In this document: one piece after another, positions 45,390 to 60,216 of the stretch
How the letters are laid out: each line of letters begins with the position of its first letter
Position numbering within the stretch: the stretch's first letter is position 1
From: Bacteroidota bacterium
GTDB taxonomy: Bacteria; Bacteroidota; Bacteroidia; Bacteroidales; UBA4417
DNA length: 64,000 bases
Direction of reading: 5' to 3'
Assembly: GCA_013376995.1 (NCBI GenBank)
Contig: JACAAZ010000001.1
Location: 227,289 to 291,288 of the forward strand
Position numbers and translations under genes: made by a program
The notes under the pieces: model-generated
The model's input: the letters and a program-made list of their open reading frames with translations, nothing else
Told to the model about the DNA's origin: nothing
The model's database searches: none

Positions 45390-47420
45390 TTATAATTTCC
45401 CCCTGCTTTCAAGTTGAGATTTGAATGCCAGCATGTCATCACGAAGCCTGGCTGCTTCATAGAAATCCAGTTCTTTGGCAGCCTTTTCCATGGCTCGTTT
45501 GGTTTCATCAACCAATTTCTTCAACTGATCCTTGTTGAGGTATTTTACCAATGGATCAGCAGCGTCATTAATTTTTTCTTCTTCAATGTATGGCTTTGGC
45601 GCTTTCGAGGAAGAATTGACAACTGATGTCTGGCCCATTATATCACCAGTGCTCTTCAAAATAGCAGTTGGAGTAATATTATTATCCGTATTGTATTTGA
45701 TTTGCTTTTCCCTTTTTCTCAAAGTTTCATCCATGGTTCGCTGCATGGAATCCGTGATTTTATCAGCATAAAATATAACCTTGCTGTTTATATTTCTTGC
45801 GGCCCTTCCCGCTGTTTGGGTTAATGATCTTTCCGAACGAAGGAATCCTTCTTTATCCGCATCAAGGATTGCGACCAGTGAAACTTCAGGCAAATCCAGG
45901 CCTTCGCGAAGCAGATTCACTCCAACCAATACATCAAATGTTCCCAGCCTGAGGTCGCGCAATATTTCAATTCTCTCAAGTGTATCTACTTCAGAATGAA
46001 TATACCTGCAACGGATACCAAGTTTGGTCATATACTTTGTAAGCTCTTCAGACATCCTCTTGGTCAGGGTCGTCACTAAAGTACGTTCTCCAACTTTAGT
46101 CCTTTGTTCTACTTCGTCAAGCAGATCATCAATCTGGTTCAAACTGGGCTTGATAACAATTTCGGGATCCAATAGCCCAGTAGGACGGATAAGTTGTTCT
46201 ACAACAATACCTTCTGTCTGGTTCAGTTCATAATCTGCAGGAGTGGCACTTACAAAAATTACCTGGCTATACATGGACTCGAATTCCTCGAACTTTAAGG
46301 GTCTGTTATCCATTGCTGAAGGGAGACGAAATCCATATTCTACCAGGTTCTGTTTCCTTGATCTGTCACCACCATACATAGCGCGAACCTGGGAAACTGT
46401 TACATGGCTTTCATCAATGACCAGCAGGAAATCGGAAGGAAAATAATCGATGAGGCAGAAAGGGCGAGCACCCGGCTGCCTTTTATCAAAGTACCTGGAA
46501 TAGTTTTCAATTCCAGAACAATACCCCAATTCCCGCATCATCTCAATATCGTAAGTTACCCGGTCTTCCAGTCGCTTAGCTTCCAGGTATCGCCCGAGCT
46601 TATTGAAATACTCAACCTGCCGTGTCATATCCTGCTGAATTTCCCAAATAGCTTCCTTCATTTTTTCCTTGGAGGTAACAAAAATGTTGGCCGGATAAAG
46701 GACAATTTCTTCCAATTCCTCAATGCCTTTGCCATTCAAAGGATCAAATGATTCAAGCAGTTCAATCTCATCACCAAAAAATATCACCCTGTAGGCAATA
46801 TCGGCATAAGCTGGAAACACATCCACTGTATCTCCTTTCACCCTGAACTTGCCTCTAGTCAATTCCAATTCTGTTCTGGAATAAAGACTTTCAACAAGTG
46901 CATGAAGGAACTTATTCCTGTTAACCTTGTCACCTTTATGGATATTTATAGTACTGTTGTAGAAATCGTCCGGATTTCCAATACCATAAATACATGAAAC
47001 GGAAGAAACGACAATTACATCCCTGCGCCCGGAGAGTAGAGCAGAGGATGCACTTAACCTCAGTTTTTCAATCTCTTCATTGATGGAAAGATCTTTCTCT
47101 ATATATGTATTCGTAACTGGAATATAAGCTTCAGGCTGATAATAATCATAATATGATACGAAATACTCAACCCTGTTATCAGGGAAAAACTGCTTGAATT
47201 CGCCATACAATTGAGCTGCCAATGTCTTATTGTGGCTTAATACCAAAGTAGGCCGGTTAATCAGCTGAACCACATTAGCTATCGTGAATGTCTTCCCTGA
47301 TCCTGTAACTCCTAATAATACTTGCGCCTGGTCTCCTCTCAACAGTCCTTCCGTAAGCTGTCGGATTGCATCAGGTTGGTCACCGGTTGGAAAGTACTCT
47401 GAAGTAAGTTTGAAATCCAT
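45390..47420 (-). CDS. uvrB: excinuclease ABC subunit B
   Basis: A 676-residue DEAD-type helicase-like repair protein that holds damaged DNA and recruits UvrC. Walker A GVTGSGKTFTIANV, the beta-hairpin YYDYYQPEAYIP, the DEAH-like VIDESHV, VSATPADYE and the later VGVNLLREGLDLPEVSLV motif are present. The C-terminal UVR motif (AMEKAAKELDFYEAARLRDD) binds UvrC. It is a partner of the UvrA encoded in this window but not adjacent to it. Confidence 0.98.
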   Translation of the reverse strand: MDFKLTSEYFPTGDQPDAIRQLTEGLLRGDQAQVLLGVTGSGKTFTIANVVQLINRPTLVLSHNKTLAAQLYGEFKQFFPDNRVEYFVSYYDYYQPEAYIPVTNTYIEKDLSINEEIEKLRLSASSALLSGRRDVIVVSSVSCIYGIGNPDDFYNSTINIHKGDKVNRNKFLHALVESLYSRTELELTRGKFRVKGDTVDVFPAYADIAYRVIFFGDEIELLESFDPLNGKGIEELEEIVLYPANIFVTSKEKMKEAIWEIQQDMTRQVEYFNKLGRYLEAKRLEDRVTYDIEMMRELGYCSGIENYSRYFDKRQPGARPFCLIDYFPSDFLLVIDESHVTVSQVRAMYGGDRSRKQNLVEYGFRLPSAMDNRPLKFEEFESMYSQVIFVSATPADYELNQTEGIVVEQLIRPTGLLDPEIVIKPSLNQIDDLLDEVEQRTKVGERTLVTTLTKRMSEELTKYMTKLGIRCRYIHSEVDTLERIEILRDLRLGTFDVLVGVNLLREGLDLPEVSLVAILDADKEGFLRSERSLTQTAGRAARNINSKVIFYADKITDSMQRTMDETLRKREKQIKYNTDNNITPTAILKSTGDIMGQTSVVNSSSKAPKPYIEEEKINDAADPLVKYLNKDQLKKLVDETKRAMEKAAKELDFYEAARLRDDMLAFKSQLESRGKL

Positions 47421-47446
47421 AATCTTTCACCTTGATTTAGCTACCA

Positions 47447-48586
47447 CTACATTTGGATGTTTGCTACAATAGGGTAGTGATCCGAATAATTATTATGTAT
47501 GGTTCTGTAATTCAGAACTTTCATTGATTCATCAGCAAAAATGTAGTCAATCCGCAGAATAGGTAATAGTTGAGTATATGTTTGTCCTAAACCAGAACCT
47601 GCTTCCTTGAATGAATCATTATGAATCCTGGCTATTTGCCTGTAAACATAGGAGGCCGGAGTATCATTGAAATCAGCACAAAGCAATACCCGGTAAGGAG
47701 ATTCCTTAATGATTGAAACCAGTTCATCGGCCTGACCCGCTCTCTTTTTATAGGCATTCATCATTTTGCCAAGGATGGTAACGATTCCTTGCCTCAAATC
47801 ATTGCCTTTCCCGCTGTTATTGGTCAGTTCATTCACGAAAATGTAATCCTCTTTACCGAATTTAATTGATTCAAGATGGGTATTGATAACCCGGATAGTA
47901 TCTGTTGGCAATGCAATATCAGTAATGATGCAGAAATTCTGGTATGTATTGAGGAAGCTGATCTTTTGTCCCGAAACAATTGGGAATTTGCTAAACGTGG
48001 CTAGCCCGAAAGGAAGTTCCTTTTTCCCATTGTCAATATAGGCATCAAAGTAGTTTTTGAATTTGCAGGATTTCATAATGGTATCCGCATAATTGGAAGA
48101 TGTTTTCTTACCACTGTAATATTCCTGTAAGCAAAGAATATCAGCGGATTCTTCTTTAAACAACCCGAATATCTGTTCCCTTGATTTTGAGAATTCTTTA
48201 TTGTTCTTCCAATTGTAAAGGTCAAACAAGCGAACATTGTATGACATCACCTTGATGCTTTCTGTTGATGGCTTCTGATTGTTGCTGCCTCTCAGTTGAA
48301 TTAATGAGTTAAACTGGTTAAAGCCAAGCAAAATGGTGATGAGCGATAATAAAAAGTACTTCTTAAGAAATACTAACCAGAATAAAACAAAAAATAAGTT
48401 AATAGCCAGGAAAAGAGGGTAAGCGATTCCGGCAAAAGCTATGGGCCAGAAATATGTGGGGGAGATATAACAGGCAAGAAGAGAACAGGCTAGCAGGAAA
48501 GCAAAGACCAAATTGACAAGAAGCATCAATTTAGTAGGCAATGACACTTTTTGTTTGGAAGGCTTCTTTCTGATTCTTTTTGCCAT
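47447..48586 (-). CDS. membrane-anchored endonuclease/exonuclease/phosphatase (EEP) family protein
   Basis: A 379-residue protein with three hydrophobic segments in the first 100 residues and a C-terminal EEP (exonuclease III/DNase I-like) domain. Active-site motifs are visible: MSYNVRLFD, LCLQEY, INTHLES, ADFNDTPASYVYR and the final NNYSDHYPI, giving the usual Asn, Glu, His and Asp set. The substrate could be a nucleic acid or a phosphorylated lipid; it is not determined here. It lies next to two rhomboid genes and mutL, as in other Bacteroidota. Confidence 0.85.
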   Translation of the reverse strand: MAKRIRKKPSKQKVSLPTKLMLLVNLVFAFLLACSLLACYISPTYFWPIAFAGIAYPLFLAINLFFVLFWLVFLKKYFLLSLITILLGFNQFNSLIQLRGSNNQKPSTESIKVMSYNVRLFDLYNWKNNKEFSKSREQIFGLFKEESADILCLQEYYSGKKTSSNYADTIMKSCKFKNYFDAYIDNGKKELPFGLATFSKFPIVSGQKISFLNTYQNFCIITDIALPTDTIRVINTHLESIKFGKEDYIFVNELTNNSGKGNDLRQGIVTILGKMMNAYKKRAGQADELVSIIKESPYRVLLCADFNDTPASYVYRQIARIHNDSFKEAGSGLGQTYTQLLPILRIDYIFADESMKVLNYRTIHNNYSDHYPIVANIQM

Positions 48587-57547: not shown

Positions 57548-59752
57548 ATGAAGGATACAGATAGTGGAGAGCTATTCAAAAACTACAGGCAGCAATATGA
57601 CCTGTTGATGGAATCATGCCGCCATATTTCATCGACTGAAGATAAAAATAGTATCAGGCAGGCATTTGAAGAAGTCAGGACTACTTTATTGGAAAATAGG
57701 GACGAGCGGAACGAAGAAGCCATTCTGCATTCGATTTCTGTTGCAAGGATCGTTGCTGAAGAAATGGAAATGGATACAACCGGTATACTCTCAGCATTGC
57801 TTCTCGATATCAGTTATGACAAGCCCGAGGTGATAGATTCACTAAAAAACCAATACGGTAAAAAGGTTGTTGATATCCTCATTAATCTCAAGAGGATAGC
57901 TGATCTGAGAATGGATAAAGTTTCCATCAATTCTGAGAATTTTATTCAGCTCCTTCTCACTATGGCTGTTGATGTGCGGGTTATCCTGATTCGCCTTGCT
58001 GATCGGTTGAACTTGATGAGGATCATTGATAAACTGCCAAATGAAAGCCAGCAGCAAATATCAATTGAAACATCAAATCTTTACTCCCCCTTGGCTCATA
58101 GACTTGGTTTGTACAGGATCAAGACAGAACTTGAGGAACTTGCAATGCAGCATGCATATCCTGAAGTTTTTACAGGAATTTCAAGAAAAATTGAAGATTC
58201 CAGGGATGAGCAAAATTCATACTTTAAAAAATTCATTCGACCAATTGACAAGGAATTGGCAGGCCATGGCCTTGATTATGAATTAAAGTTCCGGATCAAG
58301 TCCATTCCGTCAATCTGGAATAAAATGAAGAAGCAACATATTGAATTTGAGCAGGTTTATGACTATTTTGCTATCCGGATCATCCTAAAAAGTCCATTTG
58401 ATAGCGAGAAAGATGATTGCTGGAAAGCTTATTCTCTGATCACAAATATTTACCCTCCTAATCCATCCCGGTTAAGAGATTGGATATCCGCACCCAAGCC
58501 TAATGGTTATGAATCACTTCATACAACAGTCCAGGGCCCGTTAGGAAGATCAGTTGAAGTCCAAATTAGGACTAAGCGAATGGATGAGGCAGCAGAAAAG
58601 GGGAGGGCTGCCCACTGGAAATACAAGGAAGGTCCTGCAAACCAGGCTGAAACAGCAGATCAATGGCTGGCAAGTATCAGGTCGATGCTCGAAAATTATT
58701 CTCCAGGTCAAGATGAGATGAGTGCCGGCACAAAAATGGAGTTGTTCTCCGATTATGTTTTTGCATTTACACCAACAGGAGACCTGAAAAAGCTGAAGGC
58801 AGGTGCAACAGTCCTCGATTTTGCTTTTGATATTCATACAGATGTCGGACAGAAATGTTCAGGAGCTAAAGTCAATAATAATTATGTCCCTCTGAAGCAT
58901 ATTTTGCACACAGGTGACCAGGTAGAGATCATAACCACAAAAAGCCAGAAACCAAATAAGGATTGGCTTACCTATGTAACTACGTCCAAGGCAATTTCGA
59001 AGATAAAAAGATGCCTTAAAGAAGCTGAATACTCCCAGGCGGATCGAGGTAAAGGCATGTTGCAGAGGAAGATCAGCCAGTTGAAGATGAACTACAGCGA
59101 TGAGATTGCCAATAAATTAGTAAATGTTTACAAAGCTGCAAGTACCCTTGACCTTTTCCATGGCATAGCCGAAGGCAAATACGACCTGATAAAAATCAAG
59201 GAATTTCTATTGCCTGTAGCAAAGGCAGATGAATCCAAACTTCCGGATAAACCCTTCACCAAGGATATTTTGGTTCCTGCAAAAAAGGAACATCCTGTTA
59301 AAGCGCTTGTTATTATAAATGAAGATACTCCCCTGGATGATGTGAAGTTGGCCCGTTGTTGCCAACCTGTATTGGGTGATGAGATCTTTGGTTTTGTAAC
59401 TGTAGCGGAAGGAATCAAGATCCACAGGACATCTTGTACGAATGCCCTGGATATGCATTTGAGATATTCCTACAGGATTGTTAAAGCGAGATGGGCTGAA
59501 AAGACTGAAATATCCGCATATGTAACCACTATAACAATTACCGGTGATGATCAGCTTGGAATGCTGAATCAGATATCGGATACCTTAACACATGAGTTGA
59601 AGGCGAACATCCGGTCCATTAATTTATCTAGTGCTAATGGTAAATTTGAAGGTAATATTTCGATCAATGTAGATGGAAAATCTCATCTTGACCTCATTAT
59701 AGCCAGGTTATCCAAATTAAAAGGCATAAAGAAAGTAATCCGGGAAAAATAG
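57548..59752 (+). CDS. RelA/SpoT-family (p)ppGpp synthetase with degenerate hydrolase domain
   Basis: A 734-residue long RSH protein. The synthetase domain (about 230-370) is intact, with RIKSIPSIWNKMKK, YDYFAIRI, NGYESLHTT and VEVQIRT; the RxKD position reads RLRD. TGS, helical, zinc-finger-like (CCQPVLGDEIFGFV) and C-terminal ACT domains follow. The N-terminal HD domain keeps H61 but the HD motif reads LLLD (L86 D87) and the ED-type motif is absent, so it is unlikely to hydrolyse (p)ppGpp. The enzyme is predicted to be synthetase-only; a second RSH enzyme is expected elsewhere. Confidence 0.9.
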   Translation: MKDTDSGELFKNYRQQYDLLMESCRHISSTEDKNSIRQAFEEVRTTLLENRDERNEEAILHSISVARIVAEEMEMDTTGILSALLLDISYDKPEVIDSLKNQYGKKVVDILINLKRIADLRMDKVSINSENFIQLLLTMAVDVRVILIRLADRLNLMRIIDKLPNESQQQISIETSNLYSPLAHRLGLYRIKTELEELAMQHAYPEVFTGISRKIEDSRDEQNSYFKKFIRPIDKELAGHGLDYELKFRIKSIPSIWNKMKKQHIEFEQVYDYFAIRIILKSPFDSEKDDCWKAYSLITNIYPPNPSRLRDWISAPKPNGYESLHTTVQGPLGRSVEVQIRTKRMDEAAEKGRAAHWKYKEGPANQAETADQWLASIRSMLENYSPGQDEMSAGTKMELFSDYVFAFTPTGDLKKLKAGATVLDFAFDIHTDVGQKCSGAKVNNNYVPLKHILHTGDQVEIITTKSQKPNKDWLTYVTTSKAISKIKRCLKEAEYSQADRGKGMLQRKISQLKMNYSDEIANKLVNVYKAASTLDLFHGIAEGKYDLIKIKEFLLPVAKADESKLPDKPFTKDILVPAKKEHPVKALVIINEDTPLDDVKLARCCQPVLGDEIFGFVTVAEGIKIHRTSCTNALDMHLRYSYRIVKARWAEKTEISAYVTTITITGDDQLGMLNQISDTLTHELKANIRSINLSSANGKFEGNISINVDGKSHLDLIIARLSKLKGIKKVIREK

Positions 59753-59757
59753 ATTGT

Positions 59758-60216
59758 ATGACGGATCCTAATCTTGGCAGAATTCTAATTGACGAAGGAA
59801 GTATCTTGTATTTCAAGGTCATGAACATTGTTAGCCTGCAGGATAACCGGGATTACTATATACTTGAAGATCCGAACGGACTTAAGCATTTTATTGATGC
59901 AGAGGCTTATGCGACTTATGGAATTAAGATCGGAAGTAAATTAAAGTGTAAAGTTGATAAGATCAATTGCACTGGCAGAATATTATTGGAACCTGAGCAT
60001 CCGATTTATGTCGATGGACAAACTTATTTCTTTAAGGTTATTTCAGTAAACGAATCCGGAGTGAATAACAATATAGTGGTTGAGGACATTTTTCAAAATC
60101 GAATCGAAGTAAACATACAAAACATTAAAAATCAGCTTGGAAAAGATGTAGAATCTTTAAAGGCTGTTGTAATAAAAGTAAAAAAAGGTAGACCCATTCT
60201 TGAGTTCGTGGATTAG
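59758..60216 (+). CDS. tandem OB-like protein of unknown function
   Basis: A 152-residue soluble protein with no known motif that I recognise. It appears to contain two related halves of about 75 residues, each starting with a similar phrase (ILYFKVMNIVS and TYFFKVISVNE) and each rich in alternating hydrophobic and polar residues typical of small beta-barrels, such as OB or S1 folds. The first half ends with CKVDKINCTGRILLEPEHP, and the next begins right after. It starts 5 bp after the stop of the RSH gene, so the two are probably co-transcribed. A role in RNA or ribosome binding is only a guess. Confidence 0.6.
   Translation: MTDPNLGRILIDEGSILYFKVMNIVSLQDNRDYYILEDPNGLKHFIDAEAYATYGIKIGSKLKCKVDKINCTGRILLEPEHPIYVDGQTYFFKVISVNESGVNNNIVVEDIFQNRIEVNIQNIKNQLGKDVESLKAVVIKVKKGRPILEFVD

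Follow-up and report, generated by a model that had tools for sequence, protein, structure and literature searches.

The window, a 64,000-nucleotide stretch of DNA from a genome of the Bacteroidales (here G000; 5.05 Mb, 97% complete), carries at positions 57548-59752 of the forward strand a complete ORF that begins with ATG and encodes a full-length long RSH of 734 aa. Pfam places an HD_4 domain at residues 47-188 (95.7 bits), a RelA_SpoT domain at 249-362, a TGS domain at 404-463 and an ACT_4 domain at 656-732, and the protein scores above the family cut-off of the NCBIfam model spoT_relA (TIGR00691); by both resources it has the HD, SYNTH, TGS and ACT architecture of a long RSH. A sequence search matched it to 21 distinct solved chains. 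The features of the locus are as follows.

57548..59752, + strand: long RSH, HD-degenerate, predicted synthetase-only by sequence (ORF, Pfam, NCBIfam, alignment)
57686..58111, + strand: degenerate HD domain, residues 47-188 (Pfam HD_4; Rel-like N-terminal fold in the predicted model)
57728..57730, + strand: H61, equivalent to Rel_Seq H53, retained (alignment)
57803..57808, + strand: HD motif, L86-D87 replacing H77-D78 (alignment)
57815..57820, + strand: ED motif, Y90-D91 replacing E81-D82 (alignment)
58001..58003, + strand: D152, equivalent to Rel_Seq D144, retained (alignment)
58292..58633, + strand: RelA_SpoT synthetase domain, residues 249-362, with RLRD at 308-311 (Pfam; scored residues intact)
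58757..58936, + strand: TGS domain with conserved His430 (Pfam, alignment)
59357..59437, + strand: zinc-finger/RIS region, C604, C605, H626 and C630 conserved (alignment)
59513..59743, + strand: ACT domain, residues 656-732 (Pfam)
59758..60216, + strand: ORF of 152 aa with no Pfam match, starting 5 bases past the RSH stop

Positions of the HD site follow the residue numbers and roles of Rel_Seq, the columns themselves being set by alignment. The window protein has D at R44, H at H53, L at H77, D at D78, Y at E81, D at D82, D at D144 and L at N148, and its segment L86-D87-I-S-Y90-D91 (LDISYD) stands where the second RSH of the same genome has H-D-V-V-E-D. The set of six residues of an intact bifunctional site (H53, H77, D78, E81, D82, D144) is thus broken at H77 and E81, which are presumably a metal ligand and the catalytic Glu, respectively, of the Rel_Seq HD site. 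Since H53, D78, D82 and D144 are all retained, it is the changes at H77 and E81, along with those at R44 and N148, that argue for lost hydrolysis. An initial sequence-only reading of this gene had described the HD motif as LD, which the alignment bears out (L86-D87 in place of H77-D78), and the ED motif as missing, which holds for the Glu but not for the Asp; the motif reads YD, and the notion that it is wholly absent was dropped because D82 is retained.

The same reading had called the synthetase domain complete, and all 12 scored synthetase residues are indeed intact, several being invariant also in a 25-row alignment. Its proposal that the protein is probably a (p)ppGpp synthetase only is the best reading of these residues. 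The nucleotide-specificity motif, RLRD, is of the basic RXKD type and not of the acidic EXDD type seen as EFDD in E. coli RelA, and none of the 104 rows of the clade described below is acidic; the meaning attached to the basic and acidic forms follows the accessible text of PMC3153485. An AlphaFold model of the protein (mean pLDDT 79, pTM 0.59, 25 sequences in the alignment) resembles structures whose titles name ribosome-bound RelA, bifunctional Rel or full-length SpoT; the N-terminal half of the model resembles Rel catalytic fragments with a target TM of up to about 0.85. The match of the predicted model to Rel folds suggests an HD domain that is degenerate in its site, not in its fold.

Companion enzymes and the reach of HD loss

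Profile searches of G000 returned two RelA_SpoT matches and three HD_4 matches. The second long RSH, of 746 aa on contig 34 (L001), has all scored HD and synthetase residues; the search proposed earlier for another RSH with an intact HD site was thereby answered, and the accompanying suggestion that a different enzyme degrades the alarmone gains a candidate in this protein. As its synthetase site is intact as well, the pair would consist of a synthetase and a bifunctional enzyme rather than a synthetase and a pure hydrolase. The third HD_4 match is an HD-only protein of 219 aa on contig 23 (L005, 1435-2094); its best match among solved structures is 7p1y (E 8e-36), titled small alarmone hydrolase, and it also matches MESH1 weakly. 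Judged by sequence, alarmone hydrolysis in G000 has one strong candidate provider, the contig-34 RSH, and one possible one, the small-alarmone-hydrolase-like protein of contig 23.

The comparison covered long RSHs from the genus and order of the window and, further afield, from other orders of its class and other classes of its phylum. Copies of the window type, termed HD-dead here, form a clade within Bacteroidales in which none of the 102 scorable rows keeps all six HD residues, versus 63/63 rows of the class outside the order (out of 95 such genomes); in other classes of the phylum the HD site is intact in 19/19 rows read. Whether relatives share the change, as the sequence-only reading had asked, thus depends on the relatives: orthologues do, and members of the class outside the order do not. 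The extent of damage ranges from one row (G247) that lost E81 only to 23 rows that lost all six residues, and in none of the 104 rows of the clade are E81 and D82 both present. At least one of these two residues is changed in every HD-dead copy, as it is in all seven of the separately HD-damaged copies considered below. By comparison, 101 of 103 rows have at most one of the 12 synthetase residues changed, the TGS His is found in 104/104, and the CCHC set in 102/104 (the other two being gapped).

The erosion is confined in a similar manner when whole columns are considered. Fifty HD columns are at least 97% invariant in 55 single-copy Rels of the class; 44 of these drop under 80% across the 104 rows of the HD-dead clade, versus 5 across 87 rows of the HD-intact copy, or sister. 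For 53 synthetase columns the corresponding numbers are 6 and 6, and for 39 columns of TGS, AH, RIS and ACT they are 4 and 11, which argues that the HD-dead copy keeps its C-terminal columns at least as well as the sister does. In the 67 genomes that have the two copies, the HD-dead copy averages 30.3% pairwise identity in the HD region and 59.3% in the synthetase region, versus 63.8% and 54.2% for the sister; the HD region is the less alike of the two in 2210/2211 genome pairs for the HD-dead copy and in 138/2211 for the sister, these pairs being non-independent.

Where proteins were read, 62 of 98 genus and order genomes have one intact sister and one HD-dead copy, and 16 have an intact sister only, a class that takes in genomes 72% (G007) and 88% (G024) complete and one with an unlisted second match (G240). 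Three have a single ancestral-type Rel, and five appeared at first to have the HD-dead copy only, of which G002, G009 and G010 were later shown to have an intact sister. The other 12 comprise three with a sister read without its HD site, eight with extra or damaged sister copies, and the odd pair of G018. Of 122 genomes, 118 have one or more long RSHs in which the six HD residues are all present, a proportion biased toward HD-intact rows, which came partly from the best 30 matches to a hydrolase-only query; the other four are a 74% complete genome (G015), one whose sister is cut by a contig end (G029), and two in which the sister start is unread (G005, G026). On contig 12 of G276 (46089-48131), another of the 16 sister-only genomes, lies a window-type match with five in-frame stops, probably a decayed copy.

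Ancestry and genomic setting of the two copies

Trees were built without the HD region, because decay of that domain must not shape them. In a FastTree analysis of 243 rows the HD-degenerate Bacteroidales copies, the window RSH among them, form one clade of 88 rows (five unscorable) with support 1.0; in an IQ-TREE analysis of 63 chosen rows its 18 members are joined with SH-aLRT 98; in a larger tree of 283 rows the clade numbers 104 rows with support of only 0.62, and the HD-dead row L079 (G018) falls outside it. Support for the clade is therefore uneven across trees. In the 243- and 63-row trees the clade is sister to the single HD-intact Rel of G087, which belongs to another order. In the 283-row tree, 279 Bacteroidota rows stand apart, with support 1.0, from E. 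coli RelA and SpoT and two proteobacteria-like outgroup rows. This separation argues that HD loss here was independent of the gammaproteobacterial one, and it bears out the sequence-only proposal of a split distinct from RelA/SpoT of proteobacteria; by the same tree, the window RSH does not descend from the beta/gammaproteobacterial RelA/SpoT duplication.

AU tests, for groups chosen after the trees had been seen, did not reject one duplication at the root of the order, either when G087 was included (lnL 11.2 above the free tree, p-AU 0.712) or without it (p-AU 0.225). In G027, G228 and G233, all assigned to the order, the one Rel present is HD-intact and lies outside both clades, so the duplication may not span the whole order. 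Overall, the likely source of the HD-dead and HD-intact copies is one duplication of Rel close to that root. The window copy is up to 48% identical to single-copy Rels of other orders, versus 38% to its own sister.

Gene order was compared in 21 contexts with flanks of no more than about 8 kb either way; family names were assigned by Pfam on the G000 members. The arrangement rel-fur-purA, in which a FUR gene and then an adenylosuccinate synthetase gene follow rel, occurs downstream of the sister in two of eight contexts (G000, G256) and was not found within that distance in the others (G061, G099, G275, G271, G278, G227). Both genes follow the single Rel in four of seven contexts (G087, G106, G068, G092), with only the second in G064 and neither in G050 and G228, and the pair is absent from all six HD-dead contexts. 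Upstream of the window copy are genes for ClpS and an M48 peptidase, which lie near it in several genus members also. This suggests that the HD-intact copy stayed in the rel-fur-purA place and the HD-dead one moved, an argument made modest by its counts (2/8 versus 0/6). The opposite possibility, prompted by the closer identity of the HD-dead copy to single-copy Rels of other orders, is that this copy continues ancestral Rel directly; it was dropped because rel-fur-purA accompanies the sister in G000 and G256, and is unneeded in light of the AU tests, of which the one with G087 also has the higher likelihood.

Of the HD-dead copies, 68 are followed by 500 bases of DNA or more, and homologues of the 152-aa ORF lie downstream of 13 of these, nine in the genus and four in other families; none was found downstream of 53 class, 7 sister, 42 unassigned or 2 phylum rows.

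Predicted hydrolase-only copies and three-enzyme genomes

Among 335 rows scored for synthetase residues (six unscorable, four dropped as second readings of one gene), 16 distinct long RSHs have at least four of the 12 residues changed, and all 16 keep the six HD residues intact. Such proteins, predicted to be hydrolase-only, include L336 400-2463, L183 3047-5275 and L203 2585-4846, and the residues replaced in them include R241, D264, Y308, H312 and R327; sister copies of G247, G245 and G280, with two or three of 12 changed, are milder cases and were not counted as ruined. In a tree built without synthetase columns, 14 of the 16 fall within a single subgroup of the sister clade (23 rows, SH-aLRT 99), in which they are not resolved as a single branch. 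The same subgroup holds seven copies with a damaged HD site (e.g. HHDTND) and an intact synthetase, and two bifunctional rows. The remaining two synthetase-ruined copies are from G018 and G229. G018 has a reciprocal pair (L035/L079), one member with an intact HD site and ruined synthetase, the other the reverse. No protein scorable at both sites has lost both.

Each of the seven HD-damaged copies of this kind occurs in a genome where a hydrolase-only copy is also present, and in G254 and G250 the two are same-strand neighbours, with the hydrolase first and gaps of 393 and 45 bases, respectively. The assemblies concerned are mostly fragmented; the occurrence of tandem pairs on single contigs argues against a binning artefact. 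With the window-type copy, such a genome has three long RSHs. We consider it probable from these residue patterns that division of labour in Bacteroidales was repeated and went in both directions, the sister having been re-duplicated into a hydrolase-only enzyme and an HD-damaged synthetase to give three RSHs, two makers and one eraser. In the literature searched, in which subscription papers are thinly covered, neither long RSHs confined to hydrolysis nor sets of three RSHs were found described for Bacteroidales, and the three-enzyme lineages are the part of this work that may be new. They allow one to ask whether the enzymes that make the alarmone and those that remove it require sensing of their own.

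Interpretation and relation to known systems

The window gene very probably encodes a synthetase-only enzyme, one half of a (p)ppGpp system of two enzymes that is widespread in Bacteroidales. One duplication of Rel near the base of the order would have given rise to the HD-dead copy and its sister, the latter keeping, in G000, what would be the ancestral rel-fur-purA place. The window protein, in which the ribosome- and tRNA-facing C-terminal residues are retained, would make (p)ppGpp on starved ribosomes and would be unable to hydrolyse it, because the putative metal ligand H77 and catalytic E81 are gone. Hydrolysis would be left to the contig-34 sister and possibly also to the contig-23 protein, and the degenerate HD domain may survive as a structural or allosteric part.

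Retention of the H53, D78, D82 and D144 equivalents, and of a Rel N-terminal fold in the predicted model, could be taken to mean that the altered site has kept hydrolase activity toward (p)ppGpp, whether weak or dependent on a different metal or substrate. We regard this as quite improbable: H77 and E81 are both replaced, the letters at H77-D78 vary within the genus (QQ, EQ, QD and KD, with HD still in G004) in a manner that looks like drift rather than a new conserved site, and 44 of 50 HD columns lose conservation across the clade. A use of the domain in binding some ligand or partner, making the protein a regulated synthetase, would be compatible with the two-enzyme explanation and fits a fold that seems to outlast its site (the HD_4 score and the model); that no new conserved letters appear at the HD-site columns, which vary from row to row, makes such repurposing unlikely, if less so than residual hydrolysis. 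The least probable alternative, to which we give very little credence, is that window-type copies are decaying genes bound for loss. The 16 sister-only genomes of 98 (some incomplete or with an unread match) and the interrupted match of G276 indicate that the HD-dead copy can be lost, but its synthetase region is about as conserved as that of the sister, the TGS His and the readable zinc residues are invariant in the clade, and most window-type matches have no internal stop. The HD-dead copies offer a natural series of partly decayed active sites, and the system indicates an independent origin of a RelA/SpoT-type split, widespread in an order that is dominant among gut and environmental bacteria.

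The idea of a synthetase-only enzyme with a partner is already published for P. gingivalis and B. thetaiotaomicron (PMC6994654, PMC10746209). In the accessible text of PMC6994654, P. gingivalis Rel (PGN_0465) and BT_0700 are described as having hydrolase domains that lack many key residues, Rel as a monofunctional synthase and RshB as having both activities, with a duplication in Bacteroidetes; ppGpp was undetectable there only when both genes were deleted. The bifunctional enzyme of P. gingivalis yields most of the ppGpp and its deletion mutant is viable (PMC6994654), which is a poor fit to a dominant, RelA-like role for the other copy. For B. thetaiotaomicron, PMC10746209, as far as its text was accessible, likewise describes a bifunctional enzyme and a monofunctional synthase that arose by duplication and loss of hydrolase function. 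Beyond the papers cited, our article searches found neither a Bacteroidales-wide nor a hydrolase-only description.

The window RSH resembles BT_0700 and PGN_0465, as they are portrayed in those texts, in having lost HD residues and kept SYNTH residues, by sequence, beside a bifunctional RSH. The likeness is one of description and clade; the window clade takes in MAGs titled Bacteroides sp. (L054), Paludibacter jiangxiensis (L036) and Porphyromonadaceae. It also resembles the RshB of Atkinson 2011 (PMC3153485), in the accessible text a second, nested Bacteroidetes copy of Rel with a diverged HD domain and a long branch in the HD tree. In that paper RshB is recorded for Bacteroides, Porphyromonas and Parabacteroides, with the notation [HS], whereas the copies compared here come from many more families of the order and are HD-dead by their residues. 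Judging by their wording, Atkinson 2011 and PMC6994654 seem to give the name RshB contrary meanings, the former applying it to the diverged-HD copy and the latter to the bifunctional one.

E. coli RelA is likewise a long RSH with a dead HD site, a live synthetase and a partner with a live HD site, but it differs in its separate origin in the tree and in its acidic EFDD motif, where the window RSH has RLRD. A mirror image is provided by the hydrolase-only SpoT described in Moraxellaceae (PMC9974481, accessible text). The SpoT of Acinetobacter baumannii, as presented there, is unlike the window RSH and like the HD-intact, synthetase-ruined RSHs of Bacteroidales, with the difference that it lost the TGS His, which the 14-member Bacteroidales lineage retains.
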